Of a stretch of 64,000 nucleotides of DNA, positions 4,595 to 12,065 are shown piece by piece. The translations under genes were made by a program, and so were the position numbers. Below the pieces are notes generated by a model. It was not told where the DNA came from. It did no database searches and saw only the letters and a program-made list of their open reading frames with translations. Source of the DNA: Mesorhizobium atlanticum (GTDB lineage Bacteria; Pseudomonadota; Alphaproteobacteria; Rhizobiales; Rhizobiaceae); NCBI RefSeq assembly GCF_003289965.1, contig NZ_QMBQ01000001.1:868001-932000 (forward strand), read 5' to 3'. Position 1 is the first letter of the stretch, and each line of letters begins with the position of its first letter.

Positions 4595-5773
4595 ATGGAC
4601 GCCGTTTATATCGTTGCCGCCAAGCGGACGCCGATCGGCAAGTTGAACGGCGCGTTCGCCGGCCTAGCGGCGGCAGAGCTAGGAGCGCAACTTGTCCAGA
4701 CGATGCTCGCGCAAACGCGGCTCGCGCCCGACGCCGTCAGCGAGGTGATCATTGGCCAGGTGCTGACCGGAGGCGCCGGGCAGAACCCGGCGCGGCAGGC
4801 CGCGCTCAAGGCTGGCCTTCCGGTCAGCGTTCCCGCCATGACCGTCAACAAGGTGTGCGGCGCCGGGCAGAAGTCGATCCATCTCGCCGCGCAGGCCATC
4901 CGCTGCGGCGACGCCGATTGCGTGATCGCCGGCGGGCAGGATTCGATGACTTCCGCGCCGCATGTCATTCACGGCGTCCGCGGCGGCATCCGCATGGGCG
5001 AGCGCACCGTCAAGGATTCCATGATCACCGACGGGCTGTGGGATGCCTTCCATCAGGTGCATATGGGCGTAACCGCCGAAGCGCTGGCGCGGCGCTACCA
5101 GATCACCCGCGAGGAACAGGACCGTTTCGCGTTGCGCTCGCAGGAGAAGGCGGACGCCGCTACCCGGGCCGGGCGGTTCGACGACGAGATCGTCCCAATC
5201 TCGATAAAGACCAAACAGGGCGATCTCATCATCGAGCGTGACGAGCATCCCAATCCCTCCACCACCATGGAAGGCCTCGGCCGGCTGAAACCGGTCTTCG
5301 ATGCGGCGGGAACGATCACCGCCGGCAACTCCTCCGGTCTCAACGACGGCGCCGCGGCGGTGCTGGTGATGTCTGGGGCGCGGATGGAGGAACTCCGCGG
5401 CCTGACGCCCCTCGCCCGCATCGCCTCCTACGCTTCCGCCGGCGTCGAGCCGATGGATATGGGCCTCGGCCCCGTCGCGGCCTCGCGCCGCGCGCTCGAC
5501 AAGGCAGGCTGGCGCGCGTCCGACCTCGACGTCATGGAGATCAACGAAGCCTTCGCCGCGCAGGCCATCGCCGTCAATCGCGAGATGGGCTGGAACGAGG
5601 ACATCATCAACATGAGCGGCGGCGCCATCGCGCTTGGACATCCGCTGGCCGGCTCCGGCTGCCGCATCGTGGTGACGCTGTTGCATGAGATGGTCCGCCG
5701 CGATGCGCGGAAGGGCCTCGCCTCGCTCTGCATCGGCGGCGGCCAAGGTGTCGCGATCTGCCTGGAGCGATGA
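4595..5773 (+). CDS. Acetyl-CoA C-acetyltransferase (thiolase II)
   Basis: The 392-aa product is a complete thiolase: nucleophilic Cys88 in VNKVCGAGQ, the His of GGAIALGHPLAGSG near residue 350 and the second Cys in SLCIGGGQG near residue 380. The ATG at 4595 follows GAGGAGGA; reading-frame extension upstream is across the divergent promoter and is not used. It interconverts two acetyl-CoA and acetoacetyl-CoA. Divergent pairing with an acetoacetate-CoA ligase suggests degradation of acetoacetate or a 3-oxo acid to acetyl-CoA. A role in polyhydroxybutyrate synthesis (phaA) is less likely because no phaB or phaC is nearby. Confidence 0.92.
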   Translation: MDAVYIVAAKRTPIGKLNGAFAGLAAAELGAQLVQTMLAQTRLAPDAVSEVIIGQVLTGGAGQNPARQAALKAGLPVSVPAMTVNKVCGAGQKSIHLAAQAIRCGDADCVIAGGQDSMTSAPHVIHGVRGGIRMGERTVKDSMITDGLWDAFHQVHMGVTAEALARRYQITREEQDRFALRSQEKADAATRAGRFDDEIVPISIKTKQGDLIIERDEHPNPSTTMEGLGRLKPVFDAAGTITAGNSSGLNDGAAAVLVMSGARMEELRGLTPLARIASYASAGVEPMDMGLGPVAASRRALDKAGWRASDLDVMEINEAFAAQAIAVNREMGWNEDIINMSGGAIALGHPLAGSGCRIVVTLLHEMVRRDARKGLASLCIGGGQGVAICLER

Positions 5774-5866: not shown

Positions 5867-5880
5867 TTGATGTGGATCAA
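5867..5880 (+). promoter_or_regulatory. FNR/FixK-type box upstream of the RbbA exporter operon
   Basis: TTGAT-GTGG-ATCAA is an exact match to the consensus TTGATnnnnATCAA bound by FNR, Anr and FixK regulators. It lies 66 bases before the ATG of the small ORF at 5946 and 241 before the HlyD-type gene. If the box is centred at -41.5, transcription would begin near 5915. The match is seen directly; oxygen-responsive control is inferred. Confidence 0.65.
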
Positions 5881-5945
5881 GGTCGCTGCAACCGGTCTCT
5901 GTTTTGGTCGCGCGAGCTTGGCAACCTGAACGGAGTTCCCCTGAC

Positions 5946-6125
5946 ATGGACGGCATTACCTTAAGCGCCGAACAGATCGGCGCCTGGCGGCGGGAGATTG
6001 CCTCGGCAAGGCTCCTTCCCTTCCCCGCTTCGGGGCCGCTGTCTCCGGCGCCGGTCCATCTCGAGGGGGCGCTTTTGGCGCCGGCCGATGCTGACGGGTC
6101 GCGCAAAACCGGAGGCCGGCTATGA
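5946..6125 (+). CDS. Hypothetical 59-aa protein, coupled to the HlyD gene
   Basis: This short frame begins with an ATG nine bases after GGAG and ends in an ATGA overlap with the adaptor gene (6122-6125). The predicted peptide starts MDGITLSAEQIGAWRRE and is Ala/Pro rich with no membrane segment and no recognised domain. The spacing after the FNR-type box, the ribosome-binding site and the coupled stop favour real translation, either as a small protein or as a leader that sets adaptor expression. High GC makes chance frames common, so confidence is moderate. Confidence 0.42.
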   Translation: MDGITLSAEQIGAWRREIASARLLPFPASGPLSPAPVHLEGALLAPADADGSRKTGGRL

Positions 6126-7189
6126 AGGCTTCCCCGCGATGGCTGATCCTCGGCGCCCTGATCGCCTTCGGAGCAGCCGGCTACTACGCGTGGCAGCGCT
6201 CCAAGGACGGACAGTTGCCGGAAGGCATCGCCAGCGGTAACGGCCGCATCGAGGCGGTCGAAATCGACGTCTCGACGAAGGCGGCGGGGCGGATCAAGGA
6301 AATCGTTGTCGGCGAAGGCGATTTCGTCAAGGCGGGCCAGGTGCTTGCCCGCATGGACACAGCGCAGCTCGAGGCGCAGCGCCGTCAGGCGGAGGCGCAG
6401 CTTCAGCGCGCCACCATCGGGGTCGAGACCGCGGGCAGCCTGGTGACGCAGCGCGAGGCTGAAAGGACGGCGGCCGGCGCCGTCGTCGCGCAGCGCGAAG
6501 CCGAGCTCGACGCCGCCGAGCGGACCTTGGCGCGCTCCCAACAGCTCGCGGTCAACAACACCGTTTCCCAGCAGGTTCTGGATAACGACCGCGCGGCCGA
6601 GCAGAGCACGAAGGCCGCCGTCGCCGCGGCGCAGGCCCAGCTTGCCGCCAGCGAGGCGGCCATCAACGCCGCGCGGGCGCAGGTGGTCGATGCCAAGGCC
6701 GCGGTCGATGCGGCCCAGGCCGCGATCGAAAGCATCGACGCCGATATCGGCGACGCCACGCTGGCGTCGCCGCGCGACGGGCGCATCCAGTTCCGCGTGG
6801 CGGAACCTGGAGAGGTGCTGGCGGGCGGCGGGCGCGTGCTCAACCTCGTCGACCTCGGCGATGTCTACATGACCTTCTTCCTGTCGACCGCGCAGGCGGG
6901 ACGCGTCGCGATCGGCTCCGATGTGCGCCTCGTGCTCGACGCGGCGCCGCAATACATCATCCCCGCCAAGGTGACCTTCGTCGCGGACGTCGCGCAGTTC
7001 ACGCCCAAGACGGTCGAAACGGAGGAGGAGCGCCTGAAGCTCATGTTCCGGATCAAGGCGCACATCGCACCGGAGCTGCTCCGCAAATATATCCAGCAGG
7101 TGAAGACCGGCCTGCCCGGCGTGGCCTATGTGCGGCTCGATCCGCAGGCCGAATGGCCAGCGAGCCTCAAGGGAAAGCTCGTGCAATGA
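6122..7189 (+). CDS. HlyD-family periplasmic adaptor of an RbbA-type exporter (YhiI-like)
   Basis: The 355-aa protein has one N-terminal membrane anchor (residues about 5-24), a first lipoyl half ([20 protein letters not shown]), a long Ala/Gln-rich coiled-coil hairpin (residues about 80-210) and the second barrel half ([20 protein letters not shown]). This is the layout of membrane-fusion proteins that bridge an inner-membrane exporter to the outer membrane. It overlaps the next gene by ATGA, and the three-gene order adaptor, double ABC-permease, permease matches E. coli yhiI-rbbA-yhhJ. The cargo is unknown. Confidence 0.88.
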
Positions 7190-9963
7190 ATGCGCGGCCG
7201 GACGCCGGCGTGGCCCTTCCGTCAGGCTGCGTGGCGCGGCTGGAGAATGTCGGCCACGCTTACGGAAAGGTCCGGGCTCTCGATGCCATAACGCTCGATT
7301 TCCCGGCCGGCCGCATGGTCGGCCTGATCGGGCCGGACGGCGTCGGCAAATCCAGCCTGCTTTCCCTGATTGCCGGAGCACGGACGATCCAGCAGGGGCA
7401 TGTCGAGGTGCTGGGCGGCGACATGGCCGATCTCGGCCACCGGCAGAGCGCCTACCCCAGGATCGCCTATATGCCGCAAGGCTTGGGCAAGAACCTCTAT
7501 CCGACGCTGTCGGTCTTCGACAACATCGATTTCTTCGGCCGCCTGTTCGGGCATGATCGGCGCGAGCGCGAGCGCCGCATCGGCGAGCTCCTGAAGCGAA
7601 CCGGGCTGGCGCCTTTCGCCGACCGGCAGGCCGGCAAGCTTTCGGGCGGCATGAAGCAGAAGCTCGGCCTGTGCTGCGCCCTCATCCACGATCCAGACCT
7701 CCTGATCCTGGACGAGCCGACCACCGGCGTCGACCCGTTGTCGCGCCGCCAGTTCTGGGAACTGATCGGCGAGATCCGCAAGGGTCGCGAGGGCATGAGC
7801 GTCATCATCGCCACGGCCTATATGGAGGAGGCCGCGCGCTTCGACTGGCTGGTGGCCATGGACGCGGGCCGCGTGCTCGCCTCCGGAACCCCGGCCGACC
7901 TACTCGAAAGAACCGGCGCACCCGATCTGGACGCCACCTTCATAGCCCTTCTCCCGCCGGAGAAGCGGGACAGCCACGAGGCTGTGGTGATTCCTCCGCG
8001 GCCCGCCGGCGCCGACGGCGAACCCGCCATCGAGGCCGAGCACCTCACCATGCGCTTCAGTGATTTCACCGCCGTCGACGACGTGAGCTTCCGCATCGGC
8101 CGCGGCGAGATCTTCGGTTTCCTCGGATCGAACGGCTGCGGCAAGACGACCACGATGAAGATGCTGACCGGGCTGCTCGAGCCGTCCGAGGGCAAGGCAC
8201 GGCTGTTCGGGCGCGAGATCGATCCCCGCCACATCGAGGTGCGGCGGCGCGTCGGCTACATGTCGCAAGGGTTCTCGCTCTACTCGGAGCTGACGGTCCG
8301 ACAGAATCTCGAGCTCCACGCCCGCCTCTTCGGCATGGCCGATGCCGCGGTCCCGCCCCGGGTCGAGGAGGTCGCGCAGCAATTCGGCCTCGCCGACAGT
8401 GTCGACACGTTGCCTGAAGCGCTCCCGCTCGGCATTCGCCAGCGGCTGTCGCTGGCTGTGGCGATGATCCATTCTCCGGAGATACTGATCCTCGACGAGC
8501 CGACCTCCGGCGTCGACCCGGTCGCCCGTGACGGGTTCTGGCGGATCCTTGCCGATCTCTCCCGCAAGCGGAACGTGACGATCTTCGTGTCCACGCACTT
8601 CATGAACGAGGCGGAACGCTGCGATCGCATCTCGCTCATGCATGCCGGCAGGGTCCTGGTCAGCGACACGCCTGCCGCGATCGTCAAAAGCCGGTCGGCG
8701 GCAACGCTGGAGGAAGCCTTCGTCGGATATCTCGAGGAGGCGACAGGCACGCAGGCCGAAACTGCCGGGACAAGGCCGGTCCCGGAAGTCCCGGAGGCGC
8801 CGGCCAGTCGCCCCGGAAGGAGCGGCACAGGCCGTTCCTTCGATTTGCGCCGCATGTTCGCCTACACGCGGCGGGAGGCGCTTGAGCTCCTGCGCGATCC
8901 GATCCGGGCCACGCTGGCGACCGTCGGCAGCCTCATCCTGATGTTCGTGGTCGGCTACGGCATCAACATGGACGTCGAGAACCTCTCCTTCGCCGTCCTC
9001 GATCGCGACGGCACGACGATCAGCCGGGACTATGTGCTGCAGATCGCGGGCTCGCGCTATTTCACCGAGAAGGCGCCGATCACCGACTATGCCGATCTCG
9101 ACCGGCGCATGGAGAACGGGGAGCTCAGCCTCGCGATCGAAATCCCGCCCGGCTTCGGACGCGACGTTGCGCGCGGCCGCCACGTCACGGTCGGCGCCTG
9201 GATCGACGGCGCCATGCCGACACGGGCGGAAACCGTGCAAGGCTACGTTTCGGGAATGCATGCCGGCTGGCTGACGCAGAAGGCGCGTGAACTCTATGGC
9301 GACGCCGCCACCGCCAGCGCCTTCCAGCTCGACATCCGCTATCGCTACAATCCCGACGTCCGCAGTCTCGATGCCATCGTTCCGGCGGTTATCCCGATGC
9401 TTCTGCTGCTGATCCCGGCGATGCTGGCCGTGCTCAGCGTGGTGCGGGAGAAGGAGCTCGGCTCCATCATCAATTTCTACGTCACGCCCGTCACTCGGCT
9501 GGAGTTCCTGATCGGCAAGCAAATTCCCTATGTCGCCCTCGCGATGCTCAACTTCGGGCTTTTGACGGGCTTCGCCATCTTCCTCTTCGGCGTGCCGCTG
9601 ACCGGCAGCCTCCCGGCTTTCGCCGCCGCCGCCCTTCTCTATGTCACAGCCACGACGGCAATGGGGCTTTTCCTGTCGACCTTCATGAGCAGCCAGATCG
9701 CGGCAATCTTCGGAACCGCGCTGATCACCATGATCCCGGCCACCCAATATTCTGGCATGATCGACCCGGTGTCGTCGCTCCAGGGCGTGGGCGCATTCAT
9801 CGGCCGGATCTATCCAACCACCTATTTCGTGACGATCTCGCGCGGCGTCTTTTCCAAGGCACTCAGCTTTGCCGACCTGTCCGGCGCGTTCGTGCCGCTA
9901 CTCGTCGCCATTCCGGTGCTGCTCGGCCTTGGAGCGGCGTTCTTGAAAAAACAGGCCCGGTGA
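7186..9963 (+). CDS. rbbA: RbbA-like ABC protein: two ATPase domains fused to an ABC-2 permease
   Basis: The 925-aa protein starts at the ATG that overlaps the adaptor stop. Domain 1 has Walker [10 protein letters not shown], signature LSGGMKQKL and Walker [13 protein letters not shown] (residues about 1-235). Domain 2 has [10 protein letters not shown], a degenerate signature LPLGIRQRL and [12 protein letters not shown] (about 285-515). After a linker comes an ABC-2 membrane domain with one helix near 590 and a cluster of helices from about 730 to the end. The degenerate second signature and overall order match E. coli RbbA, which has also been described as ribosome-associated. Here genomic context points to export with its adaptor and second permease. 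Confidence 0.88.
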
Positions 9964-11075
9964 TGCGCATCGCCAACATATACAATCTCGGCATAAAGGA
10001 ACTGCGCGGTCTCATGCGGGACCCGATGATGCTTGTGCTGATCGTCTATGCCTTCACCGCCGCCATCTACACCGCCTCGAAGGCGATGCCCGAGACGCTC
10101 AATCACGCTCCGATCGCCATCGTCGACGAGGATCAGTCGCCGGTCTCGTCGCGTATCGTCACGGCATTTTATCCGCCCTACTTCACCGCGCCGTTGCTTA
10201 TCTCCCAGCCAGAGATGGACAGCCGCATGGATTCAGGCACGGATACTTTCGCGCTGGATATTCCGCCGAACTTCCAGCGCGATCTCCTGGCCGGCCGTTC
10301 GCCAACGGTTCAGCTCAACATCGACGCCACCCGGATGTCGCAGGCCTTTACCGGCGGAGGCTATATCCAGTCGATCGTTTCCGGGGAAGTGAACGAATTC
10401 CTCGACCACTACCGTTCCAAAGCCTCCCTGCCCGTCGACCTCGACCTGCGGGCGCGCTTCAACCCCGAACTCAACAAGGGCTGGTTCGGCGCCATCACCG
10501 ATGCGATCTCCTCCATCACCATGCTGTCGATCGTGCTCACCGGCGCAGCGCTGATACGCGAGCGCGAGCACGGCACGATCGAGCATCTGCTGGTGATGCC
10601 TGTCACTCCGTTCGAGATCATGACGAGCAAGATCTGGTCGATGAGCATCGTTGTGCTTGCAGCATCCGGCCTCGCCCTCGTCTTCGTCATCCAGGGACTT
10701 CTGTCGGTCCCCATCAATGGATCGATCACGCTGTTCATGGTGGGCGCGGCCCTCGACATAGTCGCCATGACCTGCCTGGGGATCTTCCTCGCCACGGTCG
10801 CCGGGTCCATGCCGCAATTCGGTCTGCTGCTGATGATGGTGCTGCTGCCCCTGCAGGTGCTGTCCGGCGGCGTCACGCCGCGCGAGAGCATGCCGATCGC
10901 CATCCAGGCCATCATGTTCGCAGCGCCCAACACGCATTTCGTCATGCTGGCACAGGCGGTGCTGTTCCGCGGCGCGGGCCTTGGTGTCGTGTGGCCGCAG
11001 CTCGCGGCGCTGCTGGTCATCAGCGCGCTCCTGTTTGCCTTCTCGCTCCGCCGCTTCCGACAGTTCCTGAAATAG
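9963..11075 (+). CDS. ABC-2 type permease (YhhJ-like)
   Basis: The 370-aa integral membrane protein has one N-terminal helix (residues about 20-38), a periplasmic domain of about 140 residues, and five to six C-terminal helices including ALIREREHGTIEHLLVMPVTP, typical of ABC-2 permeases. Its ATG shares one base with the RbbA stop; a GTG one codon earlier is a possible alternative. It is the last gene of the exporter operon and probably pairs with the RbbA membrane half to form the channel. The 279 bases after it hold no recognised gene. Confidence 0.88.
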   Translation: MRIANIYNLGIKELRGLMRDPMMLVLIVYAFTAAIYTASKAMPETLNHAPIAIVDEDQSPVSSRIVTAFYPPYFTAPLLISQPEMDSRMDSGTDTFALDIPPNFQRDLLAGRSPTVQLNIDATRMSQAFTGGGYIQSIVSGEVNEFLDHYRSKASLPVDLDLRARFNPELNKGWFGAITDAISSITMLSIVLTGAALIREREHGTIEHLLVMPVTPFEIMTSKIWSMSIVVLAASGLALVFVIQGLLSVPINGSITLFMVGAALDIVAMTCLGIFLATVAGSMPQFGLLLMMVLLPLQVLSGGVTPRESMPIAIQAIMFAAPNTHFVMLAQAVLFRGAGLGVVWPQLAALLVISALLFAFSLRRFRQFLK

Positions 11076-11354: not shown

Positions 11355-12065
11355 TCAGGCGCTCACGAGCCGCATGATGGTGTCGATATTGAATTCCAGA
11401 CGCTCATTTAGAGCGTTCTTCTCCATGAGGTCGCGCTCGAAAATAATCGAGCCCGTAAACCTGTTGGTCAGATAGTAGTATCCGATCGCAGCAATCGTGA
11501 TGTTGAGCTGCACAGGATCGATACCGGCGCGGAAATCGCCGCTGCTGACGCCCCGCTCAAGTATGCCCGACACCATGGCGACGAATTTGCGGCTGGCGGT
11601 CTTGATCAGTTCGGACTTCTTCACATGCTTCGCGCGGTGAAGGTTCTCGCTGTTGACCAGGGTGATAAACTCCGGATTCTTCAGATAATATTGCCATGTA
11701 AATCGCACGAGGCGTTCAAGGGCATCCCTCGGTTCCAGGTCGTCGAGATGAAGTTTCTGCTCGGCCGTGCGGATGTCCAGATAGGCATTTTCCACCACCG
11801 TCTGGAAGAGACCGTCCTTGCTGCCGAAATAATGATAAATCATACGCTTGTTGGCGTTGGCCTTGGCCGCGATAACATCGACGCGCGCGCCGCCGAGGCC
11901 ATTCTTGGCGAAATCGCTCTTCGCCGCTTCCAGAATACGAAGCTTGGTCGCTTCGGCATCCCGAAGCCGCTTCTTCTTGGCGACATTGCCTGATTTTTCG
12001 GACTTGGCGTCCACTTTGGCCGCTCCCTTGATTCCAGTTCCAGCGTGCTGTCGACGATCGGTCAT
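11355..12065 (-). CDS. TetR-family regulator, predicted controller of the downstream sugar/CoA regulon
   Basis: The 236-aa protein has a Lys-rich 30-residue N-terminal tail followed by a TetR helix-turn-helix (residues about 37-83; VDVIAAKANANKRMIYHYFG) and an all-helical C-terminal ligand domain. It is transcribed divergently from the CUT2 importer. A degenerate copy of the GTAACTAnnTRGTTAY operator lies at 12146-12161 between them; better copies occur at 22128, 28615 and 28729. TetR proteins usually repress and release DNA on binding a small molecule, so the inducer may be an intermediate of the pathway. Assignment of those operators to this protein is inferred from position. Confidence 0.85.
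   Translation of the reverse strand: MTDRRQHAGTGIKGAAKVDAKSEKSGNVAKKKRLRDAEATKLRILEAAKSDFAKNGLGGARVDVIAAKANANKRMIYHYFGSKDGLFQTVVENAYLDIRTAEQKLHLDDLEPRDALERLVRFTWQYYLKNPEFITLVNSENLHRAKHVKKSELIKTASRKFVAMVSGILERGVSSGDFRAGIDPVQLNITIAAIGYYYLTNRFTGSIIFERDLMEKNALNERLEFNIDTIMRLVSA

Follow-up and report, generated by a model that had tools for sequence, protein, structure and literature searches.

We describe an export operon of Mesorhizobium atlanticum, made up of a HlyD adaptor gene, rbbA and a second permease gene, which is very likely a low-oxygen-induced exporter under FixK/FnrN-type control through an FNR/FixK box (anaerobox) in its promoter. The operon lies in a stretch of 64,000 nucleotides (nt) of contig NZ_QMBQ01000001.1 (positions 868,001 to 932,000 of the forward strand; assembly GCF_003289965.1), here called the window, whose own numbering is used below. 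The predicted oxygen control is well supported, because the box is present throughout the clade, the promoter geometry points to a centre at −41.5, the genome has FixK/FnrN-like genes of its own, and the adaptor blr7872, assigned below to the orthologous operon of Bradyrhizobium diazoefficiens, has been published as induced in microoxia (PMC6515984; most papers below are cited from parts of their text or tables). The features concerned are:

5867 to 5880, no strand assigned: FNR/FixK box (anaerobox), TTGATGTGGATCAA, TTGAT-N4-ATCAA with 0 mismatches
5900 to 5908, plus strand: putative extended −10 element, with TG at 5900–5901 and the hexamer TTTGGT at 5903–5908, 22 nt past the box
5946 to 6125, plus strand: leader open reading frame (ORF) of 59 codons, its stop overlapping the hlyD start (ATGA), with a Shine-Dalgarno-like GGAG at 5932–5935
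6122 to 7189, plus strand: HlyD/membrane-fusion-protein periplasmic adaptor (RND_mfp, 117.6 bits, above cut-off; PRK03598, 168.4 bits, below cut-off)
7186 to 9963, plus strand: RbbA-type protein with two ATP-binding cassette (ABC) ATPase domains and an ABC-2 membrane domain (NF033858, 1555 bits; cut-off 1050)
9963 to 11075, plus strand: ABC-2 permease resembling the membrane half of RbbA (NF033858 positions 541–901, 136 bits)
11355 to 12065, convergent: TetR-family gene directly downstream of the operon

Both the box and its position are confirmed. The first-pass annotation had read TTGATGTGGATCAA, with GTGG as its spacer, as agreeing with the consensus at every fixed position, and it does so as the sole exact TTGAT-N4-ATCAA match in the window; dinucleotide shuffles gave a mean of 0.02 such matches, with a match in 2 of 100 shuffles. 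As that annotation also held, the box stands before an RbbA-type exporter operon, which is intact (hlyD-rbbA-permease); its 3′ end is 65 nt from the leader ATG and 241 nt from the hlyD ATG. That such a site arose by chance has to be weighed in a genome of 6.5 Mb, for which scaling from the window shuffles predicts about two exact 14-mers of this type, and in which 2 of the 11 exact boxes (L008 and L011) lie well within long ORFs. This explanation is contradicted by the window's own clade, where all 20 promoters that could be read carry the box (19 aligned members plus one more; a 21st, L036, is without upstream sequence). In the 19-member alignment, 9 of the 10 defined box positions are invariant, position 5 being T or C, and 3 of the 4 spacer positions vary. 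Together with the controls in relatives described next, this makes a chance match extremely improbable.

Conservation before orthologous operons, which the first-pass annotation had proposed to look for and whose absence it had named among the refuting outcomes, extends beyond the clade. RbbA loci were sampled from the genus (146 genomes), class (385), family (297) and phylum (398), plus further stretches; 165 of 169 loci were used, after dropping L027 and L036, where the upstream sequence was too short, and L052 and L055, which lacked HlyD at a contig edge. The genome of L027, read again as L348, has the box. Within about 420 nt upstream of hlyD, TTGAY-N4-RTCAA was found in 60 of the 165 loci, comprising 36 of 95 with an RbbA at least 62% identical to that of the window and 24 of 70 below 62%. 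The same half-sites with spacers of 0–3 or 5–11 occurred in 0–3 loci, versus 60 for the spacer of 4. In a permuted half-site control (n = 59), two permutations gave 25 and 24, overlapping the true motif, and the other listed ones gave 0 or 1; both controls speak against a chance match. On a FastTree phylogeny of RbbA proteins (158 scored), box state requires at least 24 changes. Judged from these loci, the box is fixed in the window's lineage, recurrent in others and far from universal. Of the 297 genomes taken from the family, 59 have an RbbA-type exporter.

Some loci in this collection deserve separate mention. A second RbbA operon of the genus, 57–60% identical, carries its own TTGACRCAGATCAA box in seven loci (L037–L039, L124, L125, L126 and L128), and other divergent rbbA copies of the genus (for example, L129–L133) are without an exact box. 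In the close relative L035 (G075:C1:922106-924882), rbbA falls into two overlapping matches, a possible frameshift, and the box is still there. A boxed rbbA locus 72% identical to that of the window occurs in a genome titled Bacillus subtilis SK6B4 (L283), probably a mislabelled or contaminated assembly. L204 (NZ_CP141089.1) is a 4.9-Mb E. coli record filed as a plasmid, and its size suggests that it is probably a chromosome.

The placement of the box agrees with a role in activation. Among 49 non-redundant boxes (from 68 boxes in 60 loci), an nAnnnT hexamer begins 23 nt past the box in 13, the next-best of 54 offsets reaching 5, and four-of-six matches to TATAAT at offsets 22–24 occur in 10, where shuffled sequences averaged 3.2 and never exceeded 9. 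Because this −10-like signal sits at a fixed offset in the relatives, the box is likely to be centred near −41.5, the position of class II activators. The −10 region of the window falls in a CTGTTTTGG-like block conserved in the clade alignment, and the transcription start site is predicted at about 5915. Class II geometry is thus supported by the comparison, with a weak hexamer in the window itself, and the earlier suggestion that the box, upstream of the leader and hlyD, is placed for activation finds its backing in this comparative signal.

Following a drop in oxygen, a FixK- or FnrN-type dimer would bind the box, probably at −41.5, and recruit RNA polymerase in the manner of other class II promoters. 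Adjacent genes of the operon, from the leader to the permease, overlap by 1–4 bases, which makes a single transcript likely. This transcript would yield the coupled leader peptide, the HlyD adaptor, RbbA and the second ABC-2 permease, and these products may assemble into an ATP-driven, envelope-spanning exporter. For M. atlanticum itself, we infer the binding of the box, the regulator acting on it, joint transcription, a partner outer-membrane channel and the cargo.

A different role for a genuine box would be repression or fine-tuning, with the main control exerted elsewhere, for example by a substrate-sensing TetR-type repressor. The TetR gene just downstream of the operon has relatives in the 20-kb stretches around L205 and L235, both boxed, and the A. 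tumefaciens operon, where no exact box occurs, is preceded by a different TetR gene. Repression of fxkR9 by an anaerobox downstream of its start site has been described (in the part of PMC7888657 used here), and the many relatives without a box would fit a non-activating role. However, the −10-like signal, 22 nt past the box, agrees with activation from −41.5, and the B. diazoefficiens adaptor goes up, not down, in microoxia (PMC6515984). We therefore consider repression or fine-tuning unlikely and activation at low oxygen the better reading.

The leader ORF between the promoter and hlyD is probably translated and coupled to hlyD, because its length differences among loci are multiples of three. 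In 11 loci, the window included, it has 59, 53 or 29 codons, an M[DVI]GI N-terminus and a stop codon that overlaps the hlyD ATG, and a Pfam search of the window's leader returned no match. The other 8 of the 19 loci compared do not preserve this arrangement. In L022 and L026, a 53-codon leader frame terminates just at hlyD, in L023 the frame continues into hlyD, and in L024 and L025 the leader is absent; for L028–L030, the script selected a different leader start.

The genome of M. atlanticum (29 contigs) also encodes proteins that could read such a box. Its HTH_Crp proteins include one FixK-like protein (L184) and three FnrN-like proteins (L185, L186 and L187) with an N-terminal CxxC...C cluster, and all four have E-T-V-S-R in the helix-turn-helix. 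We take both motifs to be hallmarks of these regulators, so the proteins expected to recognize a box of this type are present. Across the genome, there are 11 distinct exact boxes versus 0 for the reversed pattern, and 9 of the 11 look intergenic when mechanically called ORFs are read by eye. By the same ORF reading, boxes lie upstream of three universal-stress-protein-like ORFs, a divergent hemN/fnrN pair, a clpB-like ORF and others. A second copy of the identical TTGATGTGGATCAA (L010, C23:776301-776314) is 108 nt upstream of one universal-stress-protein-like ORF. Both fixN copies (L364 and L365, on contigs C6 and C28) are near Cys-bearing FnrN-like genes (L185 and L186); a relaxed box precedes the copy on C6, and no box was found upstream of the copy on C28. 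The genome has one nifH match above cut-off.

Expression data come from Bradyrhizobium. The genome that we take to be that of B. diazoefficiens USDA 110 (a 9,105,828-base contig) has a single RbbA match, within a hlyD-rbbA-permease operon orthologous to that of the window (71–72% identity), with hlyD on the plus strand at 8,628,206. A box-like CTGATCTGCATCAA precedes it, with AATGTT at the −10 offset, and the same CTGATCTGCATCAA, with one mismatch, is found in 12 of 13 Bradyrhizobium loci (L393–L405). Downstream of hlyD by 28.7 kb lies a rubrerythrin gene (8,656,926) that corresponds to blr7895 in PMC6515984, 23 locus tags on, and a search with the HlyD of the window turned up no further relative within 100 kb. 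The single rbbA operon, the distance of 28.7 kb for 23 tags and the lack of another HlyD relative together indicate that its adaptor is very probably blr7872, a low-oxygen-induced HlyD gene with a 14.1-fold higher transcript and a protein log2 change of 3.5 in microoxia versus air (PMC6515984).

A regulon reconstruction points the same way. In the genome that we take to be that of Cereibacter sphaeroides 2.4.1, the sole RbbA match lies at 208.8–211.5 kb of a 943,018-base contig, within a hlyD-rbbA-permease operon spanning about 207.6–212.5 kb. This RbbA (NF033858, 1384 bits) is 57% identical to that of the window and sits between a HlyD relative, recognized by a tblastn match of 42% identity, and an ABC-2 permease. 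The reconstructed alphaproteobacterial FixK regulon of Dufour et al. 2010 includes the HlyD RSP3160, the ABC subunit RSP3159 and the permease RSP3157, the same three kinds of gene as in the window; in the part of the paper used here, RbbA is not named and these three entries carry no FnrL-binding mark (PMC2908626). Tag interpolation between RSP3044 (78 kb) and RSP3341 (404 kb) of that paper places rbbA at about RSP3163–3164, and RSP3157–RSP3160 is thus likely, though not proven, to be the C. sphaeroides rbbA operon. The interpolation does not account for the permease being RSP3157 instead of RSP3158. A YbhGFSR-type operon, which four consecutive tags would fit, was rejected as the identity of RSP3157–3160, given the 1384-bit RbbA at that place and the interpolation. 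Before the rbbA operon of C. sphaeroides, on the same strand, is a phosphatidylglycerol lysyltransferase-like gene (L355, 9690–12470), a possible envelope-lipid hint.

The two papers bear on the statement of the first-pass annotation that RbbA-type systems are not generally discussed as oxygen-regulated. It stands as far as the name goes: in titles and abstracts of open-licence PMC papers, we found none linking RbbA (or yhiI/yhiH/yhhJ) to oxygen, and the words transporter, HlyD, efflux and the like are absent from the main text of PMC4999443. It does not stand for the control itself, which is already in print with RbbA unnamed in the parts of PMC2908626 and PMC6515984 used here. Another HlyD-ABC export cluster is mentioned in PMC6421345, and PMC6127331 yielded nothing of use. 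The HlyD protein BCAM2140 is raised in micro-oxia (PMC3759415); its membership of an rbbA operon is not established and we made no use of it.

The element itself is well characterized elsewhere. In R. leguminosarum 3841, TTGAT-N4-ATCAA sites at fixNOQP, fixGHIS and fnrN, the same element as in the window, are bound by FixK and FnrN, and activating anaeroboxes lie at −32 to −34 by the counting of that paper (PMC7888657). The genes they serve are, in the part of that source used here, respiratory or regulatory, unlike the exporter of the window. The rbbA operon on pRL9 of the same strain has a one-mismatch site only, 80 nt before hlyD.

Several observations weigh against low-oxygen control through the box. 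In the promoter of the window, the hexamer TTTGGT matches the −10 consensus at only 3 of 6 positions, and a sigma-70 scan found no promoter. The near outgroups L071 (79%), L073 (76%) and L031 (75%) have no box. Among the matches listed, an exact box occurs in 9 of 78 named relatives, including 5 of the 52 labelled Alphaproteobacteria (a sample of 80 loci, the best of a longer list, less 2 excluded for want of upstream sequence). Exact boxes are also few in 50 Bradyrhizobium loci selected from a longer match list, with 2 exact and 20 with one mismatch, and the B. diazoefficiens site itself has one mismatch, unlike the exact box of the window. The E. coli RbbA is 65% identical to that of the window, in a gene order that we take to be yhiI-rbbA(yhiH)-yhhJ, and the 1.7 kb upstream of its rbbA contains no site, even with one mismatch allowed. 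No exact box was found upstream of the P. denitrificans operon or of the A. tumefaciens 15955 operon, which has a one-mismatch site instead, and the C. sphaeroides rbbA locus has no box. Relatives of low-oxygen genes (universal stress protein, FixK/FnrN, FxkR, phosphoketolase, AckA, HemN or acetyl-CoA hydrolase) neighbour 14 of 38 boxed versus 5 of 25 unboxed operons, a difference that is not significant (P = 0.17); a low-oxygen gene island around the operon was accordingly rejected. The 63 stretches of this test comprised 59 of 60 fetched (L255 was dropped because no rbbA hit in it reached the cut-off), three plasmid loci and, from the window, its first 20 kb.

Published data add further points on the same side. 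RSP_3160 appears in a regulon table of a paper on RpoH in heat-shock and singlet-oxygen responses (PMC3441632), and other stresses may therefore act. In the part of PMC6515984 used here, blr7872 is not among the listed direct FixK2 targets and is unchanged in soybean bacteroids. These results divide the proposal of the first-pass annotation that the operon serves under microaerobic or symbiotic conditions: box conservation, geometry, regulators and blr7872 induction favour the microaerobic half, and, given the bacteroid and FixK2 data, the symbiotic half is not supported.

The proteins bear on what the operon does. The NF033858 match covers the full length of the window's RbbA (residues 16–924). 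Its first ATPase domain has a canonical signature (LSGGM) and Tyr212 at the switch-histidine position; the second has a degenerate signature (LPLGI) and keeps His471. All four aligned RbbA proteins share Tyr212, the LPLGI stretch and His471. Given the usual roles of these positions in such ATPases, the pattern suggests that one ATP site is catalytic and the other degenerate. The family's NCBIfam name implies a ribosome-bound ATPase, and work on the E. coli RbbA at the ribosome reportedly exists; were this its main function, low oxygen would tune translation, not export. Speaking against a ribosomal role, rbbA is preceded by a HlyD gene in the same orientation at 167 of 169 loci, the remaining two beginning at a contig edge, and a permease matching the RbbA membrane half lies directly 3′ of rbbA in the window. 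We find it very unlikely that RbbA acts mainly at the ribosome, and export remains our reading. Upstream of the operon, a thiolase gene ends at 5773.

The operon is a sound but partly foreseen addition to the known FixK/FNR control system, and it brings together, under a single gene family, a regulon prediction of 2010 and a table of microoxia data. More tentatively, RbbA-type exporters may form a recurrent low-oxygen module of Pseudomonadota, repeatedly brought under FNR-type control in close and distant RbbA groups, as the changes of box state on the tree would indicate; their main role might then lie not at the ribosome but in exporting some compound that is produced or required when oxygen is low. 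We know of no substrate for these exporters, and a shared low-oxygen switch would be a condition under which to seek their cargo. A widespread exporter family that carries a ribosome-based name, and is otherwise an orphan, would thereby gain a testable condition.

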